A stretch of 64,000 nt of DNA. Source: Rhizobium sp. Root483D2 (GTDB lineage Bacteria > Pseudomonadota > Alphaproteobacteria > Rhizobiales > Rhizobiaceae). Shown here in pieces: positions 36,345 to 54,650 of this stretch. The position numbers were made by a program, and so were the translations under genes. The notes beneath the pieces are model-generated. The model saw only the letters and a program-made list of their open reading frames with translations. It did not search any database and was not told where the DNA came from. The DNA lies in NCBI RefSeq assembly GCF_001426685.1, contig NZ_LMFB01000036.1, forward strand, positions 1 through 64,000, read 5' to 3'. Position 1 is the first letter of the stretch, and every line of letters begins with the position of its first letter.

Positions 36345-37280
36345 TCAAACTCCGTGCTTCTCGGCATCAACAATCGATACGGCTTCTCGAATCGTCTGGA
36401 TCAGGATAGAGACCGCCAGGGAGGGGATGACATCGGCGTGCGTGGTCAGCCCGACTGGCCCTCTTGTTTCGCGTGTATCGATCTGGAGCTTCGCTAAAAG
36501 GCCGCTTCTAATATCGCTGGCGACCACACCGGCGGAAATGATCCAGACCGCGTCAGTAATCTGGACAAATGCTCTCCCGAAGGCTTCTGAGAGAGTCTCG
36601 ATCTGGTCAGGGAGGCGGCCCACGCCGTTGCTAATCAGGAGATTGTCGACAAGAGGCCGGATGATCGAGTCGCGCGTCGGCATTAGGATCGTAAAGTCGG
36701 GCAGGCTGGAAAACAGTGACGCCTTCCGGCCCAACAACGGATGTTCGCTGCGGACGGCAAAAGCCACCTGCTCGGAGTAAAGATGCTCGAAAGAGAAACC
36801 GGTCATCTTGTTGGTACCCGCAAGACGACCGACAACTAGATCGAGATCCCCGACACGCAGCTGCTCCAACAGCGTCGTATTTTCACCCGTGATAACTGTG
36901 ACGCGGCTCGGGATTTTCTTCTTGAGAAACAAATGTACGACGTGCGGCATTATTTGAGTGGACACGGTTGGAAGTGCGCCGATCCGGATCACTGGCACCT
37001 CTTTCAATCGTTCTTGCGAAACAGCATCCAGTCCCTGCGTAACAGCGGTCAGCGCGGCGCCCGCGTGCCTTAAGAAAACGTCACCTTGTCGGGTGATCCT
37101 TATGCCGCGTCCGTCCTTTTGAAAGACGGCAACCCCCAGCAGAAGCTCAAGTTCTCTAATCGTTTTGGTGACGGCAGGCTGGCTGACATGCAAATTGTGC
37201 GCAGCTCTGCCCACGCTCTTCTGGCGGGCAACCTCCACGAACGTTTGCAAATGTCGAATTTTCACGCGGGCGTCTAACAT
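36345..37280 (-). CDS. LysR-type regulator, PcaQ-like
   Basis: 311 residues. The N-terminus (LDARVKIRHLQTFVEVARQK) and the stretch LLEQLRVGDLDLVVGRLAG followed by FSFEHLYSEQV closely match rhizobial PcaQ, the activator of protocatechuate 3,4-cleavage genes that senses beta-carboxy-cis,cis-muconate. No pca structural genes are in the window. It starts 7 bases after the decarboxylase-like gene and is probably the last gene of the long minus operon. It may be a PcaQ paralogue with a new effector. Confidence 0.85.
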   Translation of the reverse strand: MLDARVKIRHLQTFVEVARQKSVGRAAHNLHVSQPAVTKTIRELELLLGVAVFQKDGRGIRITRQGDVFLRHAGAALTAVTQGLDAVSQERLKEVPVIRIGALPTVSTQIMPHVVHLFLKKKIPSRVTVITGENTTLLEQLRVGDLDLVVGRLAGTNKMTGFSFEHLYSEQVAFAVRSEHPLLGRKASLFSSLPDFTILMPTRDSIIRPLVDNLLISNGVGRLPDQIETLSEAFGRAFVQITDAVWIISAGVVASDIRSGLLAKLQIDTRETRGPVGLTTHADVIPSLAVSILIQTIREAVSIVDAEKHGV

Positions 37281-37287
37281 CGGGATC

Positions 37288-38274
37288 TCAGATTACATAG
37301 TTCTCCAGAGTTGACGGATGGAAAAGCTCTTCTATCGCGACTTGACGCTTTGACAGCCCCTGCTTGTGGTGGGCGGCCGTGAAATATTCCAATACGTGCC
37401 TGTTGGGGCCGATGCCGTAGGGCCAAAAATCCTGCCCCATCAAAGACACCGCGCGGCGCAACTGCTCTTCGACAAAAGGTAAAGTGATCTTTGTGGCGGA
37501 TGTCTCAGAAAGATGCTCGATGGCTAACTGCTTTGACTGCACAAATGCCTTGTAGACTGCCATGGGCAACCAGGGATGCTGTTCGGCCAGTGTCTTACGT
37601 ATCCCAATAACGTGCATGATCGGGAAGATCTTGGTTTTATCGTAATATGCCATCGCCTCGGCTGTCGGATCGTTGAAAATCCAGCGTAGCGCTGTATTAG
37701 AAGGCACGAAGCTTGTGGGAGCGCGCGGCCCCATGAAGGCGTCGATACGGCCGTCTGCCAACATATCACGCAAAGTATCGGCCGGAGCGATTTCCTCGAT
37801 CTCAACACCTTCGGGTAGGTCCAGCTTGACCTTTTCGACACGGCCTGGCTGCTCCAGACCGCCTCGAACCCATTTGATATCCTGCGGATCAACACCGTAC
37901 TGGTCTTGGAGCAAGGCGCGGATCCAGACATTGGCGGTCAATTGCCATTCAGGAATACCGACGCGACGTCCTTTGAGCTGTGCGGGTTCGGTAATTCCAC
38001 TATCAGAGCGCACGATGATGCCGGTATGCCGAAATGCGCGTGACACGAAGGCAGGTATGGCGACATAGGGCGCGTCACCTCGCGAGGTGCGCAACGTGTG
38101 CGAGGACAAAGACAATTCACAGATGTCGAATGCCTCGTGCCGCATGGCGCGGAAGAACATTTCCTCAGGCGTTAGCGTCATGATAATTGGATCGACACCA
38201 TCAATCCTCGCATGGCCATCAATTAACGGGCGGTTGCGATCATAGTCACCGATGGCGACGGAAAGCTGTATCAT
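37288..38274 (-). CDS. 4,5-dihydroxyphthalate decarboxylase-like protein (NMT1/binding-protein fold)
   Basis: About 328 residues. The opening LSVAIGDYDRNRPLIDG, EEMFFRAMRHEAFDICELSL and LKGRRVGIPEWQLTANVWIR match proteins annotated as 4,5-dihydroxyphthalate decarboxylase. AGGAG precedes ATG 38274, which overlaps the ThDP enzyme stop. There is no signal peptide. If the annotation holds it would remove a carboxyl group to give protocatechuate or a similar catechol. Many family members are uncharacterised and could instead be cytoplasmic ligand-binding proteins. Confidence 0.75.
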   Translation of the reverse strand: MIQLSVAIGDYDRNRPLIDGHARIDGVDPIIMTLTPEEMFFRAMRHEAFDICELSLSSHTLRTSRGDAPYVAIPAFVSRAFRHTGIIVRSDSGITEPAQLKGRRVGIPEWQLTANVWIRALLQDQYGVDPQDIKWVRGGLEQPGRVEKVKLDLPEGVEIEEIAPADTLRDMLADGRIDAFMGPRAPTSFVPSNTALRWIFNDPTAEAMAYYDKTKIFPIMHVIGIRKTLAEQHPWLPMAVYKAFVQSKQLAIEHLSETSATKITLPFVEEQLRRAVSLMGQDFWPYGIGPNRHVLEYFTAAHHKQGLSKRQVAIEELFHPSTLENYVI

Positions 38275-40082
38275 TTCTTTTCTCCTGCATGGCGGTTCAG
38301 CGAGGCAGTCATCGCTGGCGTGTAGCCCGGTTCCACTCGAACATCGACGACCGCCACACCCCCTGACTCGACATGGGCAAGGGCATTTACAAACACTTCG
38401 ACAAGCTGATCTGCCGACTTTACCGGGCCAAAGCCTACCGCGCCTTGTGCTTGCGCTATACCTACTATGCTGATTTCCGGATCGTCCATGCGCATACCTA
38501 TCCACTTGTTTTCTACCGGCCGGCCACGCATCCGCGCCACGCGTTCCTGATGAACCTCGTCGTTGAAGAAGGACTGGTTATTGGCAACAATGTAGAGCAA
38601 AGGAATGCGATAATGCACGGCGGTCCAGATCGCGGTCACCCCCATGAGGAAATCGCCATCGCCCCCGATACAGACCGGCAAGCGGTCCATGTCCTTTAAG
38701 GCAAGCGCCGCGCCGACCGCGATACCGGGACCGCCGCCTATACCGCCGCCGCCGTCGGAGCCGAGGAAATCCAGTGGATGGCGGAAATGCCAGAACGAAC
38801 CATCCCAGCCAAGAGGAAGATGAACGAAAGAAACATCGTGCTGCGCCGTCACCCGAGCCAACGCATGCGCAAGTTGTCCCATGACGATCGGCCCGGCGGT
38901 GAGGGCGGGATAGTCCGGCAAGGGCTGTGACGTCCGAGTCGTGTCTGTCGCGGATGCCGCACCGAGTGCTCCGCAGAGGCCGGCAAGGATCTGGTCGGGA
39001 TCGGCCGAAAGCATGACGTCGATGGCAGGAAGGGCCTGGTAATCCATGTTCCAGCCGCGATGCAGCATGTGGTCCTGCGACACCTGGATGATCCTGGCCG
39101 TAGGCGAGCTACCCTCGAAGGCGGCGTCCAAAGTGCCACCGAGATCGACCCAGTCCAGCGACAGGATGACGTCCGCCGCGGCGATCGCCGTACGGGCTTC
39201 CGGAACGGCATAGATGCCGGGCGATCCCGCATGCAGCAGATGGTCTGTCGGGAAACTGGCGCCGATCTTCAGGTCGGTGACGACCTTGGCGCCCAGCTTT
39301 TCCGCAAGGGCGACCCGCAGTGCCCAGGCTCCAGGGTCGCGCGAGGCACGACCGGCGAGGATGACCGGCGTCCTGGCGCCCGAAAGGATCGCCGCGATTT
39401 CGGCCAGTTGTAACGCATCGGCACCGGCGCTGACGGAGGGGCGATATCGTGCCGCATCGATTTCCGATGTCGGATTGACGAGTTCAGCCTCCTGAAGTCC
39501 GGCGTCGAGATTGACATAGACCGGGCCCTTGGGAGAGGTGTTGGCGATCCAGTCGGCCCGCAGGATCGATTCCCGCGAGGCGAGCGCAGAGCCGGGCTGG
39601 TCGTCCCATTTGGTATAGTCGCGCACTAGTGCGCCTTGGTCACGGGACGTATGGATCCATTCGATCCAAGGCCGGCGCTTGGAGGCATCCACCGGGCCGG
39701 TGGCGCCAAGCACCACGACCGGCATGCGGTCGCACCAGGCGTTGAAGATGGCCATCGTCGCATGCATCAGCCCGACATTTGAGTGCGCGATCGCCGCCAT
39801 CGCCTTTCCGGTCACCTTGGCCCAGCCATGGGCGATCGCCACGGCATGTTCCTCGTGCAGGCAGAGCAGCATCTGCGGCCCCTTGTTGCCGAGATAGTTG
39901 ACGAGGCTGTCATGGAGGCCCCTGTAGCTCGCGCCGGGATTCAGCGCGACATAGCGGATATCCAGAGCACGGATCGCGTCGGCCATCACGTCGCTTCCGA
40001 AGATCGCGTCGAAACGATCCTGCAAAACAGGCTGTTCGACATCGGCGGGCGATCCCTGCAGGCTTGTGGTCGAATCCTTCAT
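38271..40082 (-). CDS. Thiamine-diphosphate-dependent decarboxylase/lyase (acetolactate synthase superfamily)
   Basis: About 603 residues with the three-domain layout. The N-terminal catalytic glutamate is in LCLHEEHAVAIAHGWAKVTG, and the C-terminal ThDP-binding motif runs from GGDGDFLMGVTAIW to VANNQSFFND. AAGGAAAG precedes ATG 40082. It falls in the benzoylformate decarboxylase/acetolactate synthase-like group; the specific reaction cannot be read. With an aldehyde dehydrogenase in the operon, a 2-oxo-acid decarboxylase making an aldehyde is plausible. Confidence 0.82.
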   Translation of the reverse strand: MKDSTTSLQGSPADVEQPVLQDRFDAIFGSDVMADAIRALDIRYVALNPGASYRGLHDSLVNYLGNKGPQMLLCLHEEHAVAIAHGWAKVTGKAMAAIAHSNVGLMHATMAIFNAWCDRMPVVVLGATGPVDASKRRPWIEWIHTSRDQGALVRDYTKWDDQPGSALASRESILRADWIANTSPKGPVYVNLDAGLQEAELVNPTSEIDAARYRPSVSAGADALQLAEIAAILSGARTPVILAGRASRDPGAWALRVALAEKLGAKVVTDLKIGASFPTDHLLHAGSPGIYAVPEARTAIAAADVILSLDWVDLGGTLDAAFEGSSPTARIIQVSQDHMLHRGWNMDYQALPAIDVMLSADPDQILAGLCGALGAASATDTTRTSQPLPDYPALTAGPIVMGQLAHALARVTAQHDVSFVHLPLGWDGSFWHFRHPLDFLGSDGGGGIGGGPGIAVGAALALKDMDRLPVCIGGDGDFLMGVTAIWTAVHYRIPLLYIVANNQSFFNDEVHQERVARMRGRPVENKWIGMRMDDPEISIVGIAQAQGAVGFGPVKSADQLVEVFVNALAHVESGGVAVVDVRVEPGYTPAMTASLNRHAGEKK

Positions 40083-40241: not shown

Positions 40242-41735
40242 CTATTGCTCGTCGAAAACCTCGCGGTTGCGGCGGAATGTCGGCAAGGCGACGACTGCGA
40301 TCAGCGCTACAATCAGCAACATGATCGCCAAAGAGATCGGCCTGGTGAAAAATACCGTCGCGTCTCCGCCCGAGATCGCCATGGCGCGCCGCAAATTTTC
40401 TTCGGCAAGCGGCCCAAGGATGTAGCCAAGCAGAAGTGGCACCGGTGGAAATCCGAAGGCGACTAAGAGCACACCGGCTCCGGCAAACGCCGACAAGGCC
40501 ATCAGATCCACCGCGGAAAATTCGAGTGAATAGGCCCCGATGCAGCAAATCGTCAGGATGACCGGAAACAGGATCCGATAGGGCACCCGCAGCAATTGCA
40601 CCCAGAGCCCGATGAGCGGCAGGTTAATGATCACCAGCATGACGTTTCCGATCAGCATGGAGGCAATCAGGCCCCAAAACAGATCCGGACGGGCGACCAT
40701 GACCTCCGGCCCCGGCTGGATACCCTGCATGACCATCGCGCCCAGCATCAGAGCCAGCGTTGGCGTGGTGGGAATGCCGAGAGTCAGCAGCGGAATGAAC
40801 GACGTCTGAGCTGCAGCGTTGTTGGCCGCCTCCGGCGCCGCCAGACCTTCGACGGCTCCCTTGCCGAAAATCTCCGGGGTCTTGGATATCTTCTGCTCGA
40901 ACATGTAGGCGACAAAGGTGGACAGAACCACGCCGCCGCCGGGCAGGACGCCGAGAAGCGAGCCGATCACCGTGCCGCGTGCCGCCGCGGGAGCGGCCCT
41001 TTTGGCCTCTTCGCGTGACGGCCAGAGGCGGCCGATCTTGGCTTGCATGACTTCGCGGCTGTCAGATTTCGAGATGTTCATGATGATCTCCGACAGGCCG
41101 AACAGGCCCATCGACAGCGCCACCATGCCGATCCCCTCGCTCAGCTCCGGCAGGCCGAAGGTGAAGCGCGCCGCCCCGGTCTCCACATCCGTGCCGACAG
41201 ACCCGAGCAGGATCCCGAAACAGGCCATGGCGAGCGCCTTGGACATTTTCGCACCGGAGAAAACCACCGCGGCCATCAGTCCGAGAAGCATCAAGGCGAA
41301 ATATTCGGGCGCGTTGAACCGCAGCGCGAAACTCGAAAGGATCGGCGCGAACAGCGCGATGACGACGGTCGCGCAAACGCCGGCAAACAGGGAGGAAAGC
41401 GCCGCGATGGCCAGCGCCGACCCGGCCCTGCCCTTTCGCGCCATCTGGTGACCGTCGAGAACCGTGACGACGGCAGATGCCTCGCCGGGAAGATTGCACA
41501 GGATCGCGGTGGTGGAGCCGCCATATTGGGCGCCATAAAAGATGCCAGCCAGCATGACGAGCGACGACAGCGGATCGAGATAGATCGTCATCGACAACAG
41601 CATGGAAATGGTCGCGAGCGGCCCGACGCCCGGCAGGACGCCTATCAGCGTGCCGAGCAGACAGCCGACAAGCGCGAAACCGAGATTCTGCCATGTCCCG
41701 GCCAGGCTGAAGCCGTAAAGGATGGTATCTTGCAT
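40242..41735 (-). CDS. TTT transporter large membrane subunit (TctA family)
   Basis: About 496 residues with TctA motifs GVLPGVGPLATISMLLS, GAQYGGSTTAILCNLPGEAS and APEAANNAAAQTSF. GGAGGAA stands 7 bases before ATG 41735. It is the second TctA in the window. It pairs with the TctB just upstream, while its TctC lies at the head of the same operon, about 4 kb away. Confidence 0.92.
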   Translation of the reverse strand: MQDTILYGFSLAGTWQNLGFALVGCLLGTLIGVLPGVGPLATISMLLSMTIYLDPLSSLVMLAGIFYGAQYGGSTTAILCNLPGEASAVVTVLDGHQMARKGRAGSALAIAALSSLFAGVCATVVIALFAPILSSFALRFNAPEYFALMLLGLMAAVVFSGAKMSKALAMACFGILLGSVGTDVETGAARFTFGLPELSEGIGMVALSMGLFGLSEIIMNISKSDSREVMQAKIGRLWPSREEAKRAAPAAARGTVIGSLLGVLPGGGVVLSTFVAYMFEQKISKTPEIFGKGAVEGLAAPEAANNAAAQTSFIPLLTLGIPTTPTLALMLGAMVMQGIQPGPEVMVARPDLFWGLIASMLIGNVMLVIINLPLIGLWVQLLRVPYRILFPVILTICCIGAYSLEFSAVDLMALSAFAGAGVLLVAFGFPPVPLLLGYILGPLAEENLRRAMAISGGDATVFFTRPISLAIMLLIVALIAVVALPTFRRNREVFDEQ

Positions 41736-41766
41736 AGGTGTTCCTCCCAATGCTGCTTCTGTCCGG

Positions 41767-42213
41767 TCAGAAGGCCGGGATTGCGACTCCGAGGAAGTCG
41801 ATGAAGATGAAGACGCCCATGGCGGCGAGCCCGACGGGAACCAGCACCAGATCCCAGCCCCATTTGACCGGTTCAGCCATGCGGGCGATCACGGCCGTCA
41901 CGAGAACGGTGGGCACCATTCCGGCCCATTCGATCATCATCGAAAATACGATCGGGCAGGCGATGACGACGAGGAAAGGCCGCAATTTGGGAAAGTCCGG
42001 CACTGCGGACGTGCCCTTCAATCCCTCAATTACGATGACCCCACCGAGTGCGGCAAGGCCGATGGCGGCGCAGACCGGCAAAAAGCCCGGGCCCATCCGG
42101 GTCAGCGACCCGAACGTCAATTGCGCACCAATGCCGAGGAAGACGACGGCGACGGCGATCATCGCCCCTCCGGCCACCACGTCCCAGCGGATAGTCTCCA
42201 GTCTCGATTGCAT
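41767..42213 (-). CDS. TTT transporter small membrane subunit (TctB family)
   Basis: About 148 residues, four predicted membrane helices, with the GPGFLPVCAA segment of TctB. GGGAGGA precedes ATG 42213; the longer frame upstream overlaps the aldehyde dehydrogenase and is not coding. It forms the membrane unit with TctA 31 bases downstream. Confidence 0.82.
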   Translation of the reverse strand: MQSRLETIRWDVVAGGAMIAVAVVFLGIGAQLTFGSLTRMGPGFLPVCAAIGLAALGGVIVIEGLKGTSAVPDFPKLRPFLVVIACPIVFSMMIEWAGMVPTVLVTAVIARMAEPVKWGWDLVLVPVGLAAMGVFIFIDFLGVAIPAF

Positions 42214-42233: not shown

Positions 42234-43742
42234 TCAGACGGCGCGCTTGCCGTAACGAATATGGATGTTCTTTTCCCGCGTGAAACTCAACAATTCCGCA
42301 AGGCACTCCTCGCGCCCCAGCCCCGACAGTTTCACGCCGCCAAACGGAGCGCCGAGAAAGTGGCGGCTGACCTCGTTGACCCAGATATAGCCGACATCGA
42401 CACACGCGGAGATGCGCAACGCGGCGGCAAGATCGTTGGTCCAGATCGCGCATGTCAGGCCCACATCAACCGCATTGACGTCCCGCAGCATCGCAGCTTC
42501 GTCCGACCAGGCCAGCACCGACAGGACAGGCCCGAAGATTTCCTCTCGGGCAATGGTCATGTTCTGGGTGACCCCTGTAAAGACCGTGGGCTCGACGAAG
42601 AAACCATCCTTGGTGTCGTCGCCGGAAGGCACCTTGCCGCCGGTGACCAGCGTCGCGCCTTCGGCCTTCGCCGTTTCGATATAGCGGAGGATACGCGCGT
42701 GTTGCGGAGCAGAAATGATTGCACCCATCGTCGTCGACCAATCCTCGGGCCGGCCGGGACGAAAACGACCGATCTTCTGCAACAGCGCCTCGATGACCCT
42801 ATCATGCAGCCTTTGGTGCAGAAACGCCCGGCTGGTCGATCCGCAGGATTGTCCGCACCACGCGAAATTCATGCCTGCGATCATCGCATCGGCGACTTCG
42901 CCGGGGTCGGCATCGGGGAAGGCGATCAGGGCATTCTTGCCTCCCAGCTCCAGAAGTAGCGGCTTCACACGTTCGGCCGCACTGCGCATCACGCCCTGCC
43001 CTGCGCCGACGGATCCGATCAGCGCCACGCTGTCGGTGTGCGGGTGGGCGACCAGCGCCTGACCGGTTTCACGGCCGGCGCCTGTGACGACATTGAAGAC
43101 CCCCGGCGGCAGGACATCCTCAAGCAATTCGGCAAGGCGAAGCGCGGATAGCGGCGCCTGTTCCGGCGGTTTGAGGACAACCGTGTTGCCTGCGGCCAGA
43201 GGTGCGGCCGACTTTCCCGCGGCGAACATGAAAGGATGGTTGAACGGAACGATCCGAGCGACGACACCGAGCGGCTCGCGAACCGATGTGTTCAGGCGGT
43301 CGGGGCCCATCGGGATCGACGCGCCTTTCATTTCGGTGACAAGGCCGGCGAAGAAGTCGATCTGCGCGGCGGCAATTGCCGCATCGCCGACCATGGCGGC
43401 CGCCGGATTGCCGCAATCTAGCGCATCGAGCAGCGCCAGTTCGCGTGCATTATCGCGAACGACCTGCGCCATGCGACGCAACATCCGGGCGCGCTCCAGA
43501 GGTGCCGTGTCCCGCCACCCCGGAAACGCAGTTCGGGCTGCTGCAACGGCGGCGTCGACATCGGCTTCGGACGCGTCCGCAACCGTGCCGAGCGACTGGC
43601 CGTTGCCAGGGCTGGTCACGCAGAAGGTGCGGCCGTCTTGCGCATCATGCCAGGCACCGCCGTAAAAGAGGCCACGGCGTTTTGGCAGGACCGAAGCCGG
43701 GTCGATTGCCGGCACGTCCTTGATCGCTGTCACATGTCCCAT
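42234..43742 (-). CDS. Aldehyde dehydrogenase (NAD(P)+)
   Basis: About 502 residues. The catalytic glutamate lies in LLLELGGKNALIAF and the nucleophile cysteine in NFAWCGQSCGSTSRAF. The oxyanion/NAD region IVPFNHPFMFAAGKSAAPL and the C-terminal FGGVKLSGLGREE are typical. Residue numbering and length fit a canonical ALDH. ATG 43742 is preferred; the longer frame runs over the MFS gene. It probably oxidises the aldehyde produced by the ThDP enzyme of this operon. Confidence 0.92.
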   Translation of the reverse strand: MGHVTAIKDVPAIDPASVLPKRRGLFYGGAWHDAQDGRTFCVTSPGNGQSLGTVADASEADVDAAVAAARTAFPGWRDTAPLERARMLRRMAQVVRDNARELALLDALDCGNPAAAMVGDAAIAAAQIDFFAGLVTEMKGASIPMGPDRLNTSVREPLGVVARIVPFNHPFMFAAGKSAAPLAAGNTVVLKPPEQAPLSALRLAELLEDVLPPGVFNVVTGAGRETGQALVAHPHTDSVALIGSVGAGQGVMRSAAERVKPLLLELGGKNALIAFPDADPGEVADAMIAGMNFAWCGQSCGSTSRAFLHQRLHDRVIEALLQKIGRFRPGRPEDWSTTMGAIISAPQHARILRYIETAKAEGATLVTGGKVPSGDDTKDGFFVEPTVFTGVTQNMTIAREEIFGPVLSVLAWSDEAAMLRDVNAVDVGLTCAIWTNDLAAALRISACVDVGYIWVNEVSRHFLGAPFGGVKLSGLGREECLAELLSFTREKNIHIRYGKRAV

Positions 43743-43864
43743 TGGTTTCCTCCTCGTCAGTCTTTCTGAGGTAGGCCAGTCGCGAAGCCTCGTCCAAAAC
43801 TGCCTGTTTGGTACAGCCATAGCGGAATGGTCTGGCAACGTGCGTGATAGCGACAATGCCCGCG

Positions 43865-45019: not shown

Positions 45020-45835
45020 CTACTGCGCCGCGAGATCGGTCGTGCGCAGGAAGTCGAGCGTCACCTGTCCTGCCGCCGCTATGCGATCTTCGACAGACCA
45101 GTCCTGCTGGTCGCGATGCGGCGCTTCGAGCGAAACAGAGCAATCCTTTGGCAGGAGCGCCAGCATGTCTCGAAGCGGCAGGCCGCCCTGCCCCGGATAA
45201 AGCCGCGCCTCGCGGCTCTCTACCATTTTTTCGGCCTCGGTTTCGGGAATCGCTGCCGGCGCGTCGCAGATATGGAAATGCCCGATGATCGAGCGATCGG
45301 GCATTGCGACGAGGTCGGCGATGCCGGCGCCGCTGCGACTGAGGTGGACCGCGTCGATCAGCAGCCGCGCATTAGGATGATTGACCTTCGCATGAACCGA
45401 CAGCGCAGCGGCGAGCGTCTTCATGCCGCGATACGGCATGAATTCCATTGCCATGCGAATGCCGTGGCTAGCCGATGCCTCGGCGAGCCAGCCGTAGTTT
45501 TCCGCTAGCCGTCCCAGATCGTCGTCGATTCCGGCAGAGACAATCACGCCCGCGTTCAACGCTGCCGCCGCCTCCAGCGCACGGGCAAAATCGTCGCGCT
45601 TGAAGTCGGCCCCGATCCCGAAGGATTCCGCTTCGAAAATCCGGATGCCCTGATCCTCGGCCCGCGCCCGCAGGCTGCGAATGCGCGGCCAGTCGCCGGT
45701 GACGGGATATTGGTCCGGCGCGTGGCGCGGCGGAAAGATCCGCAGCCCGACGCCCTCGAAGCCGCCCCTGGCGGCCGCATCGACCATTCGCTCCGGCTCG
45801 GCGTTGAGCGCCGTCATGTGAGAAACGCTGATCAT
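45020..45835 (-). CDS. TIM-barrel sugar-phosphate-isomerase-like enzyme, copy 1
   Basis: 271 residues of the xylose-isomerase-like TIM barrel (AP endonuclease family 2). Metal-site residues appear as the glutamate in RMAMEFMPY, LLIDAVHLSRSG, GHFHICDAP and a C-terminal SLEAPHRD. It has the same length and motif order as the enzyme at 53060. This fold includes IolE-like dehydratases and 3-dehydroshikimate dehydratases, so a dehydration of a ring polyol is possible; sequence alone does not settle it. Confidence 0.82.
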   Translation of the reverse strand: MISVSHMTALNAEPERMVDAAARGGFEGVGLRIFPPRHAPDQYPVTGDWPRIRSLRARAEDQGIRIFEAESFGIGADFKRDDFARALEAAAALNAGVIVSAGIDDDLGRLAENYGWLAEASASHGIRMAMEFMPYRGMKTLAAALSVHAKVNHPNARLLIDAVHLSRSGAGIADLVAMPDRSIIGHFHICDAPAAIPETEAEKMVESREARLYPGQGGLPLRDMLALLPKDCSVSLEAPHRDQQDWSVEDRIAAAGQVTLDFLRTTDLAAQ

Positions 45836-46904: not shown

Positions 46905-46931
46905 AATTGTCTTCGACAGACCGAAGCAATT
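46905..46931. promoter_or_regulatory. Imperfect inverted repeat in the divergent promoter region
   Basis: AATTG-T-CTTCG-ACAGAC-CGAAG-CAATT: 10-base arms with a single-base bulge, lying 74 bases upstream of the TctC start and about 155 from the dehydroquinase start. It is AT-richer than its surroundings and suits a LysR- or similar dimer-binding site. CAATTRTCTTC also occurs upstream of the second TctC gene (56649-56659). Confidence 0.45.
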
Positions 46932-47086: not shown

Positions 47087-47548
47087 ATGACCCAGCCGAA
47101 GATCCTGTGCCTGAACGGGCCAAACCTGAATATGCTGGGTGTCCGCGAACCGGAACTGTACGGTCGCTCGACGCTCGCCGATGTGGAAGCCGCCGTGCGC
47201 GCCAAGGCCGAACCTCTCGGCATGGAGATCGATTTCAGGCAGTCGAATTTTGAAGGCGAACTGGTCACCTGGATCCAGCAGGCCCATGGCGTCATCGATG
47301 GTGTCATCATCAATCCAGCCGCCTATACCCACACGTCGATCGCCATTGCCGATGCATTGCGGATCCTGACGGTGCCGATCATCGAACTGCATTTCAACAA
47401 TTCCTATCGCCATGCTGACCGCGCTTTCCGTCATCTGTCGCATGTCCGGCCGGTTGCGACGGGCGTTATTTTCGGCTTTGGCGCTGCCGGCTACATCGTC
47501 GCCGTCGAGGCGATGAACAATCTGCTTAACCCGCCCTTCCCCAAGTGA
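47087..47548 (+). CDS. aroQ: Type II 3-dehydroquinate dehydratase
   Basis: 153 residues. Family motifs: LNGPNLNMLG, the catalytic tyrosine in REPELYG, DFRQSNFEGELV, IINPAAYTHTSIAIADAL and the catalytic histidine in ELHFNNSYRHADRAFRH. GGAGG precedes the ATG. It interconverts 3-dehydroquinate and 3-dehydroshikimate. Sitting at the head of a catabolic operon, divergent from a TTT system, it most likely serves quinate-like catabolism rather than aromatic amino-acid synthesis. The HFNNSYRH segment deviates from the usual HISN-type sequence. Confidence 0.9.
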   Translation: MTQPKILCLNGPNLNMLGVREPELYGRSTLADVEAAVRAKAEPLGMEIDFRQSNFEGELVTWIQQAHGVIDGVIINPAAYTHTSIAIADALRILTVPIIELHFNNSYRHADRAFRHLSHVRPVATGVIFGFGAAGYIVAVEAMNNLLNPPFPK

Positions 47549-47620: not shown

Positions 47621-48676
47621 ATGGGCACTCCCGTCAGGATCGCATTTATCGGCGCCGGTATCATGGGCCGCCATCACCTTGCTGTAGCCGAGCGCAATCC
47701 GGAGATCGAGATTGCCGGCGTCGCCGAATTCAATCCTGAGACCCGCGAGACGCTGGCGGCCAAAGGGATCCCCACCTTTGTCGACCACAAGCACATGCTG
47801 GCTGCGGTCAAACCAGACGGCGTGGTGATCTCCACCCCTAACGCCTATCACGCGCCGGCCGCAATCGATTGCGTCGAAGCCGGCGCCGTACCCCTGATCG
47901 AAAAGCCGGTCGCCGACACGCTGGATGCCGGCCTGCGGCTGCGCGACGCTCTTAAGGGCACCGACCTGCCCGCCCTCGTCGGCCATCACCGCCGTCACAA
48001 CCCGATCATCGCGGCCGCCGCTGCCCATGTGCAGGCCGGTGGCCTCGGCCGCGTGCTGGCGCTCAACGGCATGTGGCTGCGTCGCAAGCCCGACGAATAC
48101 TACAAGGAGGCCTGGAAGACGGATCCGGCGCTCGGCGGCGGCACGCTTCTGATCAATGCCATCCACGACGTCGACAGCCTGCGCGCAATCTGCGGCGAGA
48201 TCGACACCGTGCAGGCAATGACCTCATCGGTCTCCCGCGGCTTTGCGGTGGAGGACACCGCGGCCGTGCTCCTGCGCTTTGAAAGCGGCGCGCTCGGCAC
48301 ATTCGTCATCTCCGACAATGTCGTCGCACCCTGGTGCTGGGAAATGACCTCGCAGGAGGATTCGCGCTTTGCCTGGCAGCCGGAGGATTGCTACGTCATC
48401 TGCGGCACGGAAGGCTCATTGTCGGTCCCGACGCTGGAAACCTGGACCAATTCCCCCAATGGCGGTCGCGACGCGACCTTCATCCGCCGCAAGCTTTATC
48501 ATGTGGAGGCGGAATCGATGGAACTCCAGATGGCCCATTTCGTTCGGGTAATCCGGCGCGAGGAGCCGCCGCTGGTCGGTGTCAATTCGGCACTTGGCAC
48601 GCTTGCCGCAACGCTCGCAGTCTCCCTGTCGGCAAAACGCGGAACGGCGATCCGCATCGCAGACCTGCTTGCCTGA
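47621..48676 (+). CDS. Gfo/Idh/MocA-family oxidoreductase, copy 1
   Basis: About 351 residues. Rossmann motif FIGAGIMGRHH and catalytic-type lysine in LIEKPVADTLDA; C-terminal dehydrogenase domain with GGTLLINAIHDVDSLR. GGAGGATACAT precedes ATG 47621. Members oxidise sugars, inositols and, in several bacteria, quinate/shikimate-type ring alcohols. Following the dehydroquinase by 72 bases, it is a candidate for the alcohol oxidation that produces that enzyme's substrate. Confidence 0.88.
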   Translation: MGTPVRIAFIGAGIMGRHHLAVAERNPEIEIAGVAEFNPETRETLAAKGIPTFVDHKHMLAAVKPDGVVISTPNAYHAPAAIDCVEAGAVPLIEKPVADTLDAGLRLRDALKGTDLPALVGHHRRHNPIIAAAAAHVQAGGLGRVLALNGMWLRRKPDEYYKEAWKTDPALGGGTLLINAIHDVDSLRAICGEIDTVQAMTSSVSRGFAVEDTAAVLLRFESGALGTFVISDNVVAPWCWEMTSQEDSRFAWQPEDCYVICGTEGSLSVPTLETWTNSPNGGRDATFIRRKLYHVEAESMELQMAHFVRVIRREEPPLVGVNSALGTLAATLAVSLSAKRGTAIRIADLLA

Positions 48677-48745: not shown

Positions 48746-49687
48746 ATGAATTTGCGTCAGCTACGCTACTTCGCCCAGACGGTCGAAGCGGGAAACATCA
48801 CCCGCGCGGCCGAACAGCTCTACGTCGCGCAGCCGGCACTCGGCCTGCAGATCCGTCAGCTCGAGGAAGAGCTTGGCGTGCCGCTTCTGATCCGCCATTC
48901 GCGCGGCGTTACCGCGACCGAGGCAGGCAAGCTGCTCTACGATCGCGCCCGCGATGTGCTTCGGCAGGTGGATTCTATCAAGCAGGAGGTCATGGCCCAT
49001 ACCAGCACCGCCGCCGAAAGCATCACGCTGGGTCTGACGCCGGGCCTCGGGAAGTTGTTCGGTGCCGGGCTGATGGTACGGGTCCGCGACGACATGCAGG
49101 GCGTCAGCCTGAGTGTTGTCGAGGAAATGTCCTTCGTTTTGATCGATGCGATCGAGCGCGACGAGGTCCATCTCGCCTTGGCCTATGAAGTGACCGAACG
49201 TCCGGGGCTGGCACGGGTCCCGCTGTTCGACGAGGAATTGCTTTTCGTAACCGCGGATGGATCAGAAACCGGACCTATCGCCCTGCGCGACGTCCTGAAG
49301 CAACCCATGGTTCTGGCCGGAGAGCGTGACCATGTTCATCAATTGGTGACGCAGGCGGCGGAGAAACTGGGCATCGAGCCTATCATCGGCTTTGAAGCCT
49401 CTTCGGTTAGCATCATGAAATCGCTTGTCGTCGAGGGCTCGGCCGTGAGCATCATGCCCTATGGCAGCGTCATCGGCGAATTGCAGCGCGGCGAGCTGAC
49501 TGGGCGCAAGATCGAGGACGGACAGCTGGTGCGCACGCTTTACCTCGTTCATTCCTCGCGGCGGGTTCCACTGATCCACGAGGACGAACTGGTCGAACTG
49601 ATTAAGCTCCATATCCGCAGCGCGCTGCGCAAGGTCGAGCCAATGGTTAACCCGCGCGAGGGACTGGCGCCGAAACTGGTGGATTAG
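48746..49687 (+). CDS. LysR-type transcriptional regulator
   Basis: 313 residues. Winged helix MNLRQLRYFAQTVEAGNITR with LYVAQPALGLQIRQLEEEL, then an effector domain with GLTPGLGKLFG and SVSIMKSLVVEGSAVSIMPYG, of the Cbl/Nac-like group. AGAGGAG precedes the ATG. It lies within the plus-strand set, 69 bases after the first Gfo/Idh gene, and probably regulates this cluster. A shared CAATTRTCTTC motif near both TctC genes is a possible target. Confidence 0.9.
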   Translation: MNLRQLRYFAQTVEAGNITRAAEQLYVAQPALGLQIRQLEEELGVPLLIRHSRGVTATEAGKLLYDRARDVLRQVDSIKQEVMAHTSTAAESITLGLTPGLGKLFGAGLMVRVRDDMQGVSLSVVEEMSFVLIDAIERDEVHLALAYEVTERPGLARVPLFDEELLFVTADGSETGPIALRDVLKQPMVLAGERDHVHQLVTQAAEKLGIEPIIGFEASSVSIMKSLVVEGSAVSIMPYGSVIGELQRGELTGRKIEDGQLVRTLYLVHSSRRVPLIHEDELVELIKLHIRSALRKVEPMVNPREGLAPKLVD

Positions 49688-49858: not shown

Positions 49859-50311
49859 ATGTTGAACGACTTCATTCCGGCGGAGGACGAGCGCCGGATC
49901 CACCGCCTTTACGCGCTATACTGTCACTACTTCAATCATGGAGAGGCCGAAAAATGGGTGGAGCTTTTTGCACCTAATGGCACCTTCACCCGCTTGAACG
50001 CGAGCGCTGCGGTTCCCGGCAAGACGGCAAACCCAGCCGGTTCGACGGTCGGGCACGAAGCCCTGCTCGACTTAGCCAGGGGCCGGCGCGAAATGTTCCG
50101 CGGGCTGGTGCGTCACCAGCAGACCGACATCGTCCTGACCCCTGGCACGGATGGCGATTATGTCGACGGCATTTCCTTCATCCTGCTGACCGACTGGCGC
50201 GAGGGCGCCGGTCTCTTGCGCGCCGTCGGCGATTGCAGGGCCGCTTTCGTGCGGCTGACCGAGGGCTGGCGCTTCCAGTCGATTGAACTGTCTACTTTGC
50301 CGCGTTCCTGA
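49859..50311 (+). CDS. SnoaL/NTF2-like domain protein
   Basis: About 150 residues. The core EDERRIHRLYALYCHYFNHG, then WVELFAPNGTF and DGISFILLTDWREG, fits the cone-shaped NTF2-like fold, used by scytalone-dehydratase, ketosteroid-isomerase and ring-dioxygenase beta subunits. CGGAG is 8 bases before ATG 49859. Next to a Gfo/Idh dehydrogenase and a ketosteroid-dehydrogenase-like flavoprotein, a dehydratase or isomerase role on a cyclic ketone is plausible. It is not assignable further. Confidence 0.75.
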   Translation: MLNDFIPAEDERRIHRLYALYCHYFNHGEAEKWVELFAPNGTFTRLNASAAVPGKTANPAGSTVGHEALLDLARGRREMFRGLVRHQQTDIVLTPGTDGDYVDGISFILLTDWREGAGLLRAVGDCRAAFVRLTEGWRFQSIELSTLPRS

Positions 50312-50337: not shown

Positions 50338-51321
50338 ATGAGATTTGCAGTTATCGGATCGCTCGGCTGGGCCGGGTCGCGGCATGTCAACGCACTTGCA
50401 GAGATGGGCCATGATATCGTCGCCCTGATCGACCCAGGCGCCGGCTGCGGCGCACAGGCGGAAAAGGTCGGTGCGAAGGCTTTGAGATCCCTCGACGAGT
50501 TGGACTTCGACAGCATCGACGCCGCAACGCTTGCCCTGCCGCCGCACCTGCATCCCAACCTGACGCGCCGTCTGGCGCTGGCGGGGAAGCACGTCATGTG
50601 CGAAAAGCCGATGGCGCCGGACACGACGGAGGCTCTGGCCCTGGTCGAGTTTGCCCGGACCGTGCCGGTTACTATCATGCCGGGCTACCTTCTGCGAACC
50701 AACCCGCATATCAGGGGCTTTCTCGACGCGTTGCGCGGCATGGGCAATCTGCGGCGGGTGCATTTGTCGACCAACGTTCGCAAGCCTTCAATGGCGGGCT
50801 GGCGCAGCGCGCCAGTCATTGGCGGCGCGCTTCTCGTTAACGCCATTCACCAGATCGATCTGGCCACATGGTTCGCCGGCGAAAAGCTGACGCCGCGTTT
50901 TGCACAGCTCGACAACGTGCATTTCGAGGCGCCGACCGAGGATCTCTTCTTCACCTCGCTCGTTTCGCCGTCCGGTGTCACCGCAACGGTCCTCAGCAGC
51001 TGGTCGCCGAACCCGCCGATCTGCGACGACGGCCTGATGATTACCGACGCTGGCCGGCTCCGCATCGAGGCCGAAACGGATGAGGGGTCGATCGTCCTGA
51101 CCGCCACAGGATATCGCAAGAACGGCGAGGATGTCACGCTTCCGGGCGTCGCCGGTGTCAACCAGTTCATCAAGGAACTGGAGCATTTCGTCGACGCGAT
51201 CGAGAACGGTACGCCGCTCTGGGTCACGGTCGAGGACAATTACGACGTGCAAAAACTGATCGAGGATTGCCGCGCCGTGGCCATCCCGCCAGCCGGCCGG
51301 GTGGCGCAGCGGGTCGCTTGA
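50338..51321 (+). CDS. Gfo/Idh/MocA-family oxidoreductase, copy 2
   Basis: 327 residues; FAVIGSLGWAGSRHVNALAE Rossmann start, CEKPMAPDTTEALAL with the catalytic lysine, and GGALLVNAIHQIDLATWF in the second domain. GGAGGAG precedes ATG. It is clearly different from copy 1 and lies in a tight run with the SnoaL-like protein (26 bases upstream) and flavoprotein (2 bases downstream). The likely role is NAD(P)-dependent oxidation of a ring hydroxyl in the same pathway. Confidence 0.87.
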   Translation: MRFAVIGSLGWAGSRHVNALAEMGHDIVALIDPGAGCGAQAEKVGAKALRSLDELDFDSIDAATLALPPHLHPNLTRRLALAGKHVMCEKPMAPDTTEALALVEFARTVPVTIMPGYLLRTNPHIRGFLDALRGMGNLRRVHLSTNVRKPSMAGWRSAPVIGGALLVNAIHQIDLATWFAGEKLTPRFAQLDNVHFEAPTEDLFFTSLVSPSGVTATVLSSWSPNPPICDDGLMITDAGRLRIEAETDEGSIVLTATGYRKNGEDVTLPGVAGVNQFIKELEHFVDAIENGTPLWVTVEDNYDVQKLIEDCRAVAIPPAGRVAQRVA

Positions 51322-51323
51322 CC

Positions 51324-53063
51324 ATGCTTGGACCCGCAGCGCCAGCCGCTAAGCAGGCAAAAGGTCAGGCCTATTGCCCTTCGGAAACCGATGTGATCGT
51401 CATCGGCGCGGGGGCTGCCGGGCTCGCCGCTGCCGTCGCTGCAAAGGAGATGGGACTGGAGGTCGTCATCCTCGAAAAGGAACCTGTCTTCGGCGGCACG
51501 TCCGCGCTCTCCGGCGCTGCCATCTGGATCCCGTTGCATGACAAGGACACGAGCGATGACGATGAAGGCAAGGTACTGACCTATCTCGATGCGCTGGCCG
51601 ACCCCGACGACCGGCCGCGGCGGGAAGCCTTTACACGCAACGCCGGTACGGCACTCGCGTTCTTTCATAAGTGCGGCGCGCTGCGATACACGCCCCGGGT
51701 GATTGCGCCGGATTACCATCCGGAGCTTGTCGGCGCCTCGGACACGGGCCGGGTCCTGGATGTCGATATCTTCGACGGCCGGGCGCTCGGACATCGTTTG
51801 CGCCAACTTCGACAACCGCTGGCCAGCCATCTCGTCTTCGGCGGGATGATGGTCAACCGGGCGGACGTGCAGACCCTGCTCGGCTTCGGCCGGACCGTCG
51901 GTGCAACCCGGCGCGGTCTTTCGCTGCTCGCTCGCTATCTCGGCGACAGGTTGACCGGCTGGCGGCGGGGCACTCGGCTGGTGGTGGGTAGCGCTCTGGT
52001 CGGACAGCTGGCGAATGCCGTTTTCAGGCAGCGAATACCGTTACTCCTTGGCGTCGGTGTCCGTCGGTTGACCCTATGCGATGGGCGGGTGACCGGCGCG
52101 CAGATCGACATCGATGGCGTTGCGGGTCATCTCCACGCCCGCAGGGCCGTGATTCTTGCAACCGGCGGATTTTCAGGCAATGCGAAAATGTCGCTTGCAC
52201 ATCGAGACCCGAGCGTTCCCCATCTCAGCATGGCAAGCGCCTCGTCCGATGGTGGCGGCATCGCACTGGCGCAGTCGGTCGGCGGCCGGCTGGCCGAGAC
52301 CGGCTCCAGCACTTTCTTTCGCGCGCCGGTCTCCATTCATCGTCGGCGACAATCGGAAATTGCCCGCATCGCTCATCTGGTGCTAGACCGCGCAAAGCCC
52401 GGGGTCATCGCCGTGGACCGCCACGGGCGTCGTTTTACCAACGAAGCCGATTCCTATCATCGCTTCGGCACGGCCCTCAGCCGCCTGAAATCCTTGGCAC
52501 CGGGCGAACCCACCGCTTGGCTGATATGCGACGCGCGGGCGCTGAAGCGCTATGGGTTGGGGCTTGCGCGGCCGTTCCCCGCCCATCTGGGCAATGGCAA
52601 ACTGGTCCGCGACGGTTATCTGATCGAAGCACCCACAATCATCGCACTGGCCGGAAAACTGGGTCTGCCGGCCGAACAGTTGGCGGAGACGATCGCGTCT
52701 CATGCAGCGGCGGCACGCAACGGCCGGGATCCCGACTTCGGCAAGGGCGACAGTGGCCACAACCGGGCGCTGGGCGATCCCACCATCGTGCCAAATCCCT
52801 GTCTTGCACCGATCGATCTGGCACCGTTTTACGCGGTGGCGGTCTACAGCGGCGATCTCGGCACGGCACGCGGGTTGCGCACGGACGCCAACGCCCGTGT
52901 GTTGAACAAAGCCGATGCACCGGTCGCCGGCCTTTACGCCATCGGCAACGACATGCACTCAATCATGGGCGGCGCCTATCCCGGCCCAGGCATCACGCTC
53001 GGGCCGGCCCTAGTCTTCGCCTGGATCGCCGCTAACGCCATCGCCGAAGGAGACCCGTCATGA
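51324..53063 (+). CDS. FAD-dependent flavoprotein of the 3-ketosteroid-dehydrogenase/fumarate-reductase group
   Basis: About 579 residues. FAD motif DVIVIGAGAAGLAAAVAAKE near residue 24, FGGTSALSGAAIWIP, ATGGFSGNAKM, and the C-terminal IGNDMHSIMGGAYPGPGITL typical of ketosteroid dehydrogenase-like enzymes. No signal peptide and no heme motif, so it is a soluble dehydrogenase. These enzymes desaturate ring ketones, which can lead to aromatisation. It is the most specific clue that this cluster handles a cyclic ketone. Confidence 0.82.
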   Translation: MLGPAAPAAKQAKGQAYCPSETDVIVIGAGAAGLAAAVAAKEMGLEVVILEKEPVFGGTSALSGAAIWIPLHDKDTSDDDEGKVLTYLDALADPDDRPRREAFTRNAGTALAFFHKCGALRYTPRVIAPDYHPELVGASDTGRVLDVDIFDGRALGHRLRQLRQPLASHLVFGGMMVNRADVQTLLGFGRTVGATRRGLSLLARYLGDRLTGWRRGTRLVVGSALVGQLANAVFRQRIPLLLGVGVRRLTLCDGRVTGAQIDIDGVAGHLHARRAVILATGGFSGNAKMSLAHRDPSVPHLSMASASSDGGGIALAQSVGGRLAETGSSTFFRAPVSIHRRRQSEIARIAHLVLDRAKPGVIAVDRHGRRFTNEADSYHRFGTALSRLKSLAPGEPTAWLICDARALKRYGLGLARPFPAHLGNGKLVRDGYLIEAPTIIALAGKLGLPAEQLAETIASHAAAARNGRDPDFGKGDSGHNRALGDPTIVPNPCLAPIDLAPFYAVAVYSGDLGTARGLRTDANARVLNKADAPVAGLYAIGNDMHSIMGGAYPGPGITLGPALVFAWIAANAIAEGDPS

Positions 53064-53875
53064 ACCCTGCCCATCTATCGCTTGCACAGCTTGGCATGAA
53101 CGACGAGGGACCGATTGCGCTGATCGAGGCCGCGGCCGACGCGGGCTTCGGCGCCGTCGGGCTGCCGCTGCGCTCCGGCGCGTTGCGAAAGCTGAAGGTA
53201 GATATCGTGGGGAATGCGCCGCTTGTCCGCGAGATCGTCGCCGCCTGCCGCGACACGGACGTCACTGTCTTCGATGTCGAAGCCTTGGTTCTCGGTCATC
53301 TGCCAGAGCCGGAGGCGCTGAAGCAGACCCTTGAAACCGCGGCCATGCTCGGCGCCTCACGCATTTCCTGTCTCGGTTTCGAACCGGACCATGGGCCGGG
53401 CGATATCCCGCCGGAAGGCGACGCCGGAAAACTAGCGGAAATCTGCACGCTGGCCGCACAGTTCGGCCTTCGTGTCGGCGTGGAATTCATGGCTTTCCGT
53501 TCCATCGGCAGTCTTGCAGCAGCCGTGGACATCGTCGAGCGATCTGGCGCGCAGAATGCCGGCATCGTTCTCGACGCCTTGCATGTGCAGCGAACCGGGG
53601 CGGGATCGTCGGATATTGCGGCGCTCAAACCGGGCATCGTTTCCCACCTTCAGATCTGCGACGCCTCCGCCGTGTCGCCGGCGCAAAAAGATCTTGCGGA
53701 CGAGGCACGCGGTGCACGGCTGCTGCCCGGCGAAGGCGTCGTTCCGCTGGCGGCAATCATTGCCGCCCTACCGCTCGGCACCGCGATGTCGCTCGAAATT
53801 CCGGTGGCCGCCCTTGCCGGCATTCCCGTGCGCGAGCGCGCAAGGATCGGCGCGGCCTCGGTCGCATGGCTGTGA
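53060..53875 (+). CDS. TIM-barrel sugar-phosphate-isomerase-like enzyme, copy 2
   Basis: 271 residues, overlapping the flavoprotein by 4 bases. Same fold and length as the enzyme at 45020: compare GVEFMAFRSIGS, IVLDALHVQRTGAG, SHLQICDAS and LLPGEGVVPLAAII. The two paralogues lie on the two arms of one divergent cluster, which suggests two related dehydration or isomerisation steps. A 3-dehydroshikimate-dehydratase-like activity is possible but not shown. Confidence 0.82.
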   Translation: MNPAHLSLAQLGMNDEGPIALIEAAADAGFGAVGLPLRSGALRKLKVDIVGNAPLVREIVAACRDTDVTVFDVEALVLGHLPEPEALKQTLETAAMLGASRISCLGFEPDHGPGDIPPEGDAGKLAEICTLAAQFGLRVGVEFMAFRSIGSLAAAVDIVERSGAQNAGIVLDALHVQRTGAGSSDIAALKPGIVSHLQICDASAVSPAQKDLADEARGARLLPGEGVVPLAAIIAALPLGTAMSLEIPVAALAGIPVRERARIGAASVAWL

Positions 53876-53885
53876 AGGAGACATT

Positions 53886-54650
53886 ATGACAGTACCGGCA
53901 AAAGTGGCCCTGATCACCGGGGCGGCGCGCGGTCTTGGTTATGCGGCGGCAGAGCGGCTCTCGCTGGACGGTGTCCGCGTGGCGCTTGCCGACATCAACC
54001 GGGAAGGCGCGGAGGAAAGCGCTGCCCGCCTTCGCGCAAGCGGCATCGATGCGAGCGGCTACCGGCTGGACGTGGCCGATCCGCAATCGATCAAGGAGGC
54101 GGTCGCCGCAGTCGAGCGCGACTTTGGGCGGATCGACATTTTGGTCAACAGCGCCGGCATCCTGCCGCGCGTCAACGGCCGCAATCCCACCGTCGCCGAT
54201 ATGCCGCTCGATATCTGGAACGCTACCCTTGCCGTCAACCTCACTGGCCCGATGCTCATGGCGCAGGCCTGCCTTCCAGCCATGCGCCGCGCAGGCTGGG
54301 GGCGAATCATTACCATCTCCTCGCGCTCCGGCCGCATGCGCACCTTCGGCAACGCCCATTATTCCGCCTCGAAAGCCGGCCTTTTCGGACTGTCGCGCAT
54401 TCTAGCCGGCGAAGTTGGCCCCGAGGGCATCACGGTCAACTGCATTGCCCCGTCGCGGGTCGATACCGAACTGAACCGCGCCCTGCCCGGCAACGAGGCA
54501 ACGCTGCAGGCGGCGCTGAACGAGACGCCGATGGGGCGCATCGGCAAGCCTGAGGATATCGCGGCCGCAGTCGCCTATCTTGCCTCCGACGCGGCGGGGT
54601 TCGTCACCGGCGCCATCCTCGACGTGACCGGCGGATCGTACATGCCGTGA
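53886..54650 (+). CDS. Short-chain dehydrogenase/reductase
   Basis: About 254 residues. GAAGGAG precedes ATG 53886; the longer frame upstream shadows the TIM-barrel gene. Motifs: TGAARGLG at residues 12-19, NSAGILPR, ISSRSG and catalytic YSASK. It is a full-length classical SDR for an alcohol/ketone step in the ring pathway. Confidence 0.9.
   Translation: MTVPAKVALITGAARGLGYAAAERLSLDGVRVALADINREGAEESAARLRASGIDASGYRLDVADPQSIKEAVAAVERDFGRIDILVNSAGILPRVNGRNPTVADMPLDIWNATLAVNLTGPMLMAQACLPAMRRAGWGRIITISSRSGRMRTFGNAHYSASKAGLFGLSRILAGEVGPEGITVNCIAPSRVDTELNRALPGNEATLQAALNETPMGRIGKPEDIAAAVAYLASDAAGFVTGAILDVTGGSYMP

Follow-up and report, generated by a model that had tools for sequence, protein, structure and literature searches.

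Positions 36345 to 54650 of the Rhizobium sp. Root483D2 contig NZ_LMFB01000036.1, analyzed here within a window of 64,000 nucleotides (positions 1 to 64,000, forward strand), carry two divergently transcribed arms of catabolic genes, raising the question of whether these serve one pathway or two, and for what kind of substrate. A first-pass annotation had proposed a convergence on protocatechuate through oxidation, dehydration and aromatization of an alicyclic acid. This fits the comparative evidence, which allows a more specific description of the arms: the minus-strand arm resembles an arylglyoxylate/formylbenzoate/dihydroxyphthalate-decarboxylase module of the kind present in phthalate clusters and the plus-strand arm a modified quinate/shikimate module. 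The locus is a real, accessory and rarely seen catabolic island composed of known enzyme families, and no description of this gene combination was found. We tentatively favor, with somewhat less than even confidence, its being a single horizontally acquired pathway for one hydroaromatic acid in which both arms work together. This reading draws on the joint occurrence of the arms in three genomes, a conserved divergent region, the Pht5-type identity of a decarboxylase, the neighborhoods of genes for the thiamine diphosphate (ThDP)-dependent enzyme, and the lack of any match for Pht3, the phthalate 4,5-dioxygenase.

Layout and distribution of the island

Scans of the open reading frame (ORF) list with Pfam and NCBIfam profiles recovered every gene and the tight spacing given in the first-pass annotation, which had overlooked two genes, one for a transporter of the major facilitator superfamily (MFS; 43865-45019) and one for LysR2, an additional LysR regulator (48746-49687). 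Counting in an EamA-type frame and a second binding protein, the cluster reaches 56538. Leftwards from TctC1, the minus arm comprises TctC1, TIM1, MFS, aldehyde dehydrogenase (ALDH), TctB, TctA, ThDP enzyme, the dihydroxyphthalate-decarboxylase-like gene and PcaQ; the plus arm runs AroQ, Gfo1, LysR2, SnoaL, Gfo2, KstD, TIM2, short-chain dehydrogenase/reductase (SDR) and EamA, with TctC2 convergent to it. TctA, TctB and TctC, all above their Pfam cut-offs, make up a complete tripartite tricarboxylate transporter (TTT) set. Intergenic distances within the tight runs are -4 to 26 bp, with wider gaps of 159 (between ThDP enzyme and TctA), 72, 69 and 129 bp. The features are:

36345..37280, minus: PcaQ-type LysR regulator, second genome copy (TIGR02424 398.3 bits, cut-off 303.8)
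37288..38274, minus: probable 4,5-dihydroxyphthalate decarboxylase of the Pht5 family, an "NMT1"-type gene (PDB 9jp7 430.8 bits, E 3e-128)
38271..40082, minus: ThDP-dependent decarboxylase, benzoylformate-decarboxylase-like (profile and PDB matches; 4 bp overlap with the decarboxylase gene)
40242..41750, minus: TctA, large membrane subunit of TTT importer (PF01970 497 bits)
41767..42213, minus: TctB, small membrane subunit of TTT importer (PF07331 44.5 bits)
42234..43838, minus: ALDH, 2-formylbenzoate-dehydrogenase-like (PF00171 490 bits)
43865..45019, minus: MFS transporter (PF07690 85 bits)
45020..45835, minus: TIM1, xylose-isomerase-like TIM barrel, dehydroshikimate-dehydratase/IolI-like (PF01261 82 bits)
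45842..46831, minus: TctC1, periplasmic binding protein of TTT importer (PF03401 199 bits)
46911..46926, no strand: CTTCG-N6-CGAAG palindrome, candidate LysR site
47087..47548, plus: type II dehydroquinase (AroQ) with altered loop (NF003806 196 bits, cut-off 171)
47621..48676, plus: Gfo1, Gfo/Idh/MocA dehydrogenase (profile scan; relative in a rhizobial quinate/shikimate cluster)
48746..49687, plus: LysR2, second LysR regulator, inside the plus arm (profile scan)
49859..50311 (ORF opens at 49817), plus: SnoaL_4/NTF2-fold protein, candidate dehydratase or isomerase (PF13577 59.5 bits; AlphaFold2 model and fold search)
50338..51321, plus: Gfo2, second Gfo/Idh/MocA dehydrogenase (PF01408 78 bits)
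51324..53063, plus: KstD-like FAD-dependent ring dehydrogenase (PF00890 270 bits; PDB 7p18 281 bits)
53060..53875, plus: TIM2, TIM1 paralogue (PF01261 73.5 bits; alignment to 5hmq)
53886..54650, plus: SDR dehydrogenase (PF13561 225 bits)
54647..55054, plus: EamA-type transporter frame, probable pseudogene (in-frame stop ends the frame early)
55546..56538, minus: TctC2, second TTT binding protein (PF03401 137 bits; 85% identical in Shinella kummerowiae)

The accessory character of the island is apparent in a sample of 26 genus genomes (the host and 25 others, two of them less than 90% complete). The ThDP gene matched at E<=1e-100 in the host only, with no match in the same-species genome G213, and KstD matched at E<=1e-60 in the host and one other (41% identity, one internal stop). 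The GC content of the cluster is 62.4%, against 59.3% and 58.2% in the flanks, and the right edge (56681-57046) bears an IS240/IS6-type DDE transposase fragment scoring 26.0 bits, just below the Pfam cut-off of 27.

Further afield, Shinella kummerowiae shares a block of 17 genes with the island (protein identity 74-97%, DNA identity 77-81%), PcaQ being the only one missing of the 18 intact in the window; this recurrence argues that the cluster is no chance assembly. In this version, additional genes for an AroQ (the second, 59%), a TIM barrel (the third), an RraA-like protein and another TctC lie between MFS and ALDH. An independent recruitment of AroQ in S. kummerowiae, suggested by the 59% copy, was dropped as a syntenic copy at 93% is also present. 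Corticibacterium UT-5YL-CI-8, whose locus is identical in sequence to stretches of the family genome G127, has 12 of the 18 in reshuffled order (TctA 74%, ALDH 69%, ThDP enzyme 67%, decarboxylase 65%, SnoaL 65%, LysR2 53%, TctC1 53%, TIM1 50%, SDR 50%, TctC2 48%, TctB 45% and KstD 39% identical), together with two further TIM barrels and a glucose-methanol-choline (GMC) oxidoreductase; relatives of AroQ, Gfo, MFS and PcaQ were not found in the 40 kb fetched around it. In draws of 394 family genomes, ThDP matches of at least 65% and SnoaL matches of at least 60% fell in the same two, the host and Corticibacterium. A locus in a Gemmobacter metagenome-assembled genome (TctC2-SDR-ThDP-NMT1, 70-84%) was not counted as a full relative, its SDR and ThDP matches being shortened.

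The arms are separated by a divergent control region of 255 bp (46832-47086), in which two blocks are conserved with S. kummerowiae. The region includes the CTTCG-N6-CGAAG palindrome, which is likewise conserved in S. kummerowiae and occurs only once within the window.

The minus arm and its recurrent neighborhoods

The product of 37288..38274 is very probably a Pht5-type 4,5-dihydroxyphthalate decarboxylase: it aligns end to end (residues 2-327) with the solved enzyme 9jp7 and is 55% identical to the annotated Pht5 of Marinibacterium plasmid pLA6_006. That plasmid is annotated with phdK, pht3, ophA1, pht4, pht5 and mdlC (gene names in public records being depositors' or automatic), and the island ALDH is 61% identical over 262 aa to the protein annotated there as PhdK. 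In the ThDP enzyme, H100 aligns with the catalytic histidine (HS/HT motif) of benzoylformate decarboxylase 4q9d (His70 of the P. putida enzyme); all 40 aligned matches of at least 45% identity, among them the island's own copies, have this histidine. The mandelate pathway thus shares with the island the logic of a ThDP decarboxylase followed by an ALDH and this aligned histidine; unlike that pathway, the island has no mandelate dehydrogenase among its scanned genes, and the product would enter the dihydroxyphthalate decarboxylase.

To place this arm in context, a set of 33 loci encoding ThDP enzymes at least 47% identical to that of the island was assembled from 10 plasmid regions of 43 records, 20 stretches from 19 of the 23 matching family genomes (host and Corticibacterium handled separately, G146 and G374 left out) and a decarboxylase search of the genome collection. 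The last yielded 189 pattern matches, 142 relatives and 80 loci kept, many ended by contig ends. The host, S. kummerowiae, Corticibacterium, Gemmobacter and five scan loci at 34-46% are excluded, and the set includes near-duplicates (such as L138/L173, L132/L134, L167/L168 and L175/L176), so that its members are not independent events. Phthalate genes of the Pht3/4/5, OphA1 or NMT1 type (at least 50% identical) are present in 18 of the 33, Pht3 in 12, and a Pht5 or NMT1-type gene in 15; ALDH or PhdK (at least 40%) accompanies 24, an alpha-hydroxy-acid oxidase (at least 40%) eight, pcaH two and AroQ one (L069). Conversely, among the 80 decarboxylase loci a ThDP match is found in 11, a KstD or TIM match in two and a LysR2 relative (at least 38%) in 10. 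From this gene context the minus arm may be read as an arylglyoxylate decarboxylase, a 2-formylbenzoate-type dehydrogenase and a dihydroxyphthalate decarboxylase acting in succession and yielding protocatechuate.

As a separate observation, ThDP-ALDH-Pht3 clusters recur (L131, L132, L134, L137, L138, L169, L170, L177, L178, L180), most with Pht4/Pht5 and some with an alpha-hydroxy-acid oxidase and a nadC-like gene; these could represent a 2-carboxymandelate/phthalonate pathway via phthalate.

Phthalate 4,5-dioxygenase is the usual supplier of 4,5-dihydroxyphthalate decarboxylase. However, no Pht3 match at E<=1e-10 was obtained in any of the three genomes with the cluster, while the control record matched; hence, their decarboxylases need another source of dihydroxyphthalate. 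The phthalate 4,5-dioxygenase pathway (Pht3/OphA1-Pht4-Pht5, phdK and mdlC on pLA6_006) and the island have in common the Pht5-type decarboxylase, the ThDP enzyme, the 2-formylbenzoate-type ALDH and, as predicted for the island, protocatechuate as end product. The island differs in lacking a Rieske oxygenase or reductase and in carrying hydroaromatic enzymes instead, and the identity between its Gfo proteins and Pht4 is only about 25%. Importers in the other ThDP/phthalate loci are of the TTT, ATP-binding cassette (ABC) or tripartite ATP-independent periplasmic (TRAP) type, that of the island being TTT; terephthalate-binding proteins are among the PDB matches of TctC1. As an outlet for protocatechuate, the host has pcaH with an adjacent weaker pcaG-like match on another contig (C16), no pca dioxygenase having turned up in the profile scans of island genes.

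The first-pass annotation had also taken PcaQ as a pointer to protocatechuate metabolism. Its assignment to the family stands, but it says little about the pathway, since the host encodes another PcaQ adjoining pcaH on contig C16 (68% identity between the two), and none was found in the examined stretches of the S. kummerowiae and Corticibacterium clusters. A search for the PcaQ box motif gave chance-level results (13 found with up to 3 mismatches, against a mean of 14 in shuffled sequences).

The plus arm and its likeness to quinate/shikimate modules

The plus arm looks like a rhizobial quinate/shikimate module, with a KstD-like dehydrogenase and a protein of the NTF2 fold in addition. Relatives of Gfo1 (E<=1e-40) occur on 168 plasmid records, 104 of them from Rhizobium, with identities of 39-46% among the matches listed. 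The one Rhizobium region opened, on R. johnstonii pRlX4, encodes a QuiC-like protein, a binding protein, AroQ, an ABC transporter, Gfo, shikimate dehydrogenase, pcaBGHCD and pcaQ. It thereby shares with the island AroQ, a Gfo1 relative, a TIM-barrel protein, a PcaQ-type regulator and a presumed flow to protocatechuate; in contrast to the island, it has no KstD, SnoaL or ThDP enzyme annotated in the 35 kb viewed, shows other AroQ substitutions and uses an ABC rather than a TTT importer. A relative of KstD is located close to a Gfo1 relative in an Azospirillum, and another adjoins a SnoaL relative on a Paracoccus plasmid.

These likenesses bring up the alternative that the plus arm is a variant quinate/shikimate pathway, in which Gfo1 would be the dehydrogenase, AroQ the 3-dehydroquinate dehydratase and a TIM barrel the 3-dehydroshikimate dehydratase, with KstD and SnoaL acting on analogues, for example dihydroshikimate, that are reduced or epimeric. 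Besides NF003806, AroQ scores above the cut-off of TIGR01088 (171.6, cut-off 169.85), and it falls below that of NF003804 (159.6, cut-off 195). Several features make the variant pathway unlikely. Of the conserved substrate-binding residues of type II dehydroquinases (Arg19, Tyr24, His81, Ser103 and Arg112 in M. tuberculosis numbering), AroQ keeps the Arg, Tyr, His and Arg, with an insertion of two residues and a change of Ser to Asn. TIM1 and TIM2, 31% identical to each other, were compared with the dehydroshikimate-dehydratase active-site list of QsuB/QuiC1 (Arg64, Leu97, Glu134, Leu136, Asp165, His168, Gln191, Ser206, Arg210, Glu239): each retains six of the ten, TIM1 lacking 64, 97, 136 and 191 and TIM2 lacking 64, 97, 136 and 206 (the alignment near 64 and 97 being the least certain), whereas the R. 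johnstonii QuiC-like protein retains all ten. Both fail the QuiC equivalog NF042435, a model of 635 positions, with 27.7 and 31.1 bits against a cut-off of 1200. Further, S. kummerowiae and Corticibacterium own QuiC-like genes outside the island (72% and 70%), so these two are unlikely to keep the island for plain quinate use; the host has a partial match only, outside the barrel. An AroE-type or pyrroloquinoline quinone (PQQ)-type dehydrogenase did not turn up in the cluster profile scans.

Apart from this question, the AroQ proteins of L028, L025, L010, L069 and L141, which lie near hydroaromatic or phthalate-like genes, share the replacement of a conserved His by Phe and of a conserved Arg by Tyr and might form a separate functional group.

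The TIM barrels also bear on a very improbable reading, namely that the Gfo, GMC and TIM-barrel genes act on a sugar-like or C-glycoside substrate through 3-keto-glycoside chemistry rather than on a shikimate-type ring. DgpA-type Gfo proteins are indeed among the PDB relatives of Gfo1, and the GMC oxidoreductase adjoins the TIM barrels in the Corticibacterium version; however, AroQ, KstD and the dihydroxyphthalate decarboxylase would have no obvious role in it, and among PDB structures the TIM barrels come closest to Lmo2234 and, in the case of TIM1 only, to IolI. The AlphaFold2 model of TIM1 (mean confidence score, pLDDT, 94.5) matches the folds 2g0w, 1i60 and 5hmq, and fold searches leave it between dehydroshikimate dehydratase and IolI (Z within 2). 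Likewise, a fold search with the SnoaL protein does not tell dehydratases and isomerases of the NTF2 fold apart, the top matches being tied within 1 Z.

The KstD-like protein is a clear FAD_binding_2 member falling below the curated cut-offs of PRK12843 (580/758 bits), PRK12844 (KstD, 399/789) and ChcC2 (380/900). The cyclohexanecarboxylate aromatization system ChcB/ChcC and the 3-ketosteroid dehydrogenases share with the island a KstD-type flavoprotein and an SDR acting on ring ketones or alcohols, yet the island protein is far from both in score, and no P450 or other hydroxylase family was recovered in the cluster scans. Elsewhere in the family, pairs of KstD-like genes lie beside TIM barrels (L027, that is G189:C23, 7746-15138; L032, 9778-14276), and further hydroaromatic gene clusters may exist. 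Proteins beside KstD, SDR and TIM genes in three loci (L023:2764-3480, L025:13243-13995, L027:18791-19504) have a common EYxEWHxREHMPERLxIPGF stretch; no Pfam family was found for the two scanned.

One pathway or two feeders

Under the single-pathway reading, for which we infer every catalytic step, their order and the substrate, the latter would be a hydroaromatic acid of cyclohexane or cyclohexene type with ring hydroxyls, a ring carboxylate and, presumably, an adjacent glyoxylate-type side chain. It would be imported by TctABC (and MFS) and its ring hydroxyls oxidized by Gfo1, Gfo2 and SDR, with KstD introducing a double bond beside a ring ketone. AroQ, TIM1, TIM2 and the SnoaL-fold protein would then remove water or shift double bonds, so that a catechol forms with no ring-hydroxylating oxygenase involved. 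Next, the ThDP enzyme could decarboxylate the alpha-keto acid to an aldehyde; ALDH would oxidize this aldehyde to 4,5-dihydroxyphthalate, an o-dicarboxylate from which the Pht5-type decarboxylase would form protocatechuate, to be consumed by pcaHG elsewhere in the genome. The detailed version of this oxygenase-free route is more doubtful: here a dehydroquinase turned to a new use would act together with TIM barrels of IolI/QuiC type, a dehydratase of the NTF2 fold and a dehydrogenase of KstD type to aromatize a hydroaromatic keto-diacid to a 4,5-dihydroxyphthalonate-type intermediate, which would then enter the ThDP/ALDH/Pht5 module. Were it correct, AroQ proteins from clusters of this type would form a group acting on compounds other than 3-dehydroquinate.

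Several points weigh against a single pathway. No substrate with the required skeleton has been identified. KstD, TIM and SnoaL relatives are lacking in all 33 of the other ThDP loci within the sequence stretch examined, 15 of these have no phthalate gene at the 50% threshold, and the ThDP enzyme scores far under the benzoylformate decarboxylase cut-off of NF005485 (139.5 vs 493 bits). The absence of AroQ and both Gfo genes from the 40 kb fetched around the Corticibacterium cluster implies that some plus-arm genes are dispensable, and the three clusters, a small number, may descend from one ancestor. The link of LysR2 to decarboxylase loci is modest. Additionally, only homologues of Pht3 were sought, and a different oxygenase could make dihydroxyphthalate.

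Some of these observations are what would be expected of two independent protocatechuate feeders lying side by side under shared control, the minus arm for an already 4,5-dihydroxylated acid of arylglyoxylate or formylbenzoate type and the plus arm for a quinate- or shikimate-like acid. This is a possible reading that we rate below the single pathway and above variant quinate use. Besides the ThDP loci devoid of plus-arm genes, it is favored by consecutive AroQ, Gfo1 and TIM-barrel relatives without a ThDP gene in the stretches examined of two family relatives (G054, G189), by the QuiC-AroQ-Gfo set in R. johnstonii, and by the two TctC genes, which at 29.7% identity allow two ligands. Thus, where the first-pass annotation had asked if the arms occur separately, each is found alone elsewhere within the stretches examined, yet they stand together in three genomes, in one of them reshuffled, which two feeders would not readily explain. 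Nor would they explain the location of TIM1, TctC1 and MFS inside the minus-arm run, or that of LysR2, with its relatives at decarboxylase loci, inside the plus arm. On this balance the single pathway is preferred.

The literature searched, outside which most subscription journals lay, offered little precedent. No paper was found joining dihydroxyphthalate decarboxylase with benzoylformate decarboxylase, 3-dehydroshikimate dehydratase with TTT and quinate, or quinate/shikimate with a Gfo/Idh/MocA dehydrogenase. A search on phthalonate decarboxylase returned only a legume-nodule paper, and those on phthalonic acid, carboxybenzoylformate and o-carboxymandelate none on bacterial catabolism by title. 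Dihydroshikimate catabolism to protocatechuate matched only work on synthetic pathways, and cyclohexanecarboxylate gave no close match by title among the matches listed. The main text of a 2026 review of phthalate degradation contains neither "thiamine" nor "phthalonate" (PMC13040137). If correct, the single-pathway reading would join two known entrances to protocatechuate, from hydroaromatic acids and from phthalate-type diacids, in one pathway without a ring-hydroxylating oxygenase, and would indicate an unrecognized plant- or soil-derived substrate. The recurrent ThDP/ALDH/dihydroxyphthalate-decarboxylase module, on which these searches found no paper, is flagged in its own right.

At the margins of the island, the EamA frame (54647-55510) is broken by an in-frame stop near 55052, and the S. 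kummerowiae match is longer (80% over 255 aa). To the left, 26359-36265 holds a sugar/polyol cluster with an FGGY kinase, a mannitol dehydrogenase-type protein, a binding protein, a LacI regulator and a GlcNAc 2-epimerase-type protein.

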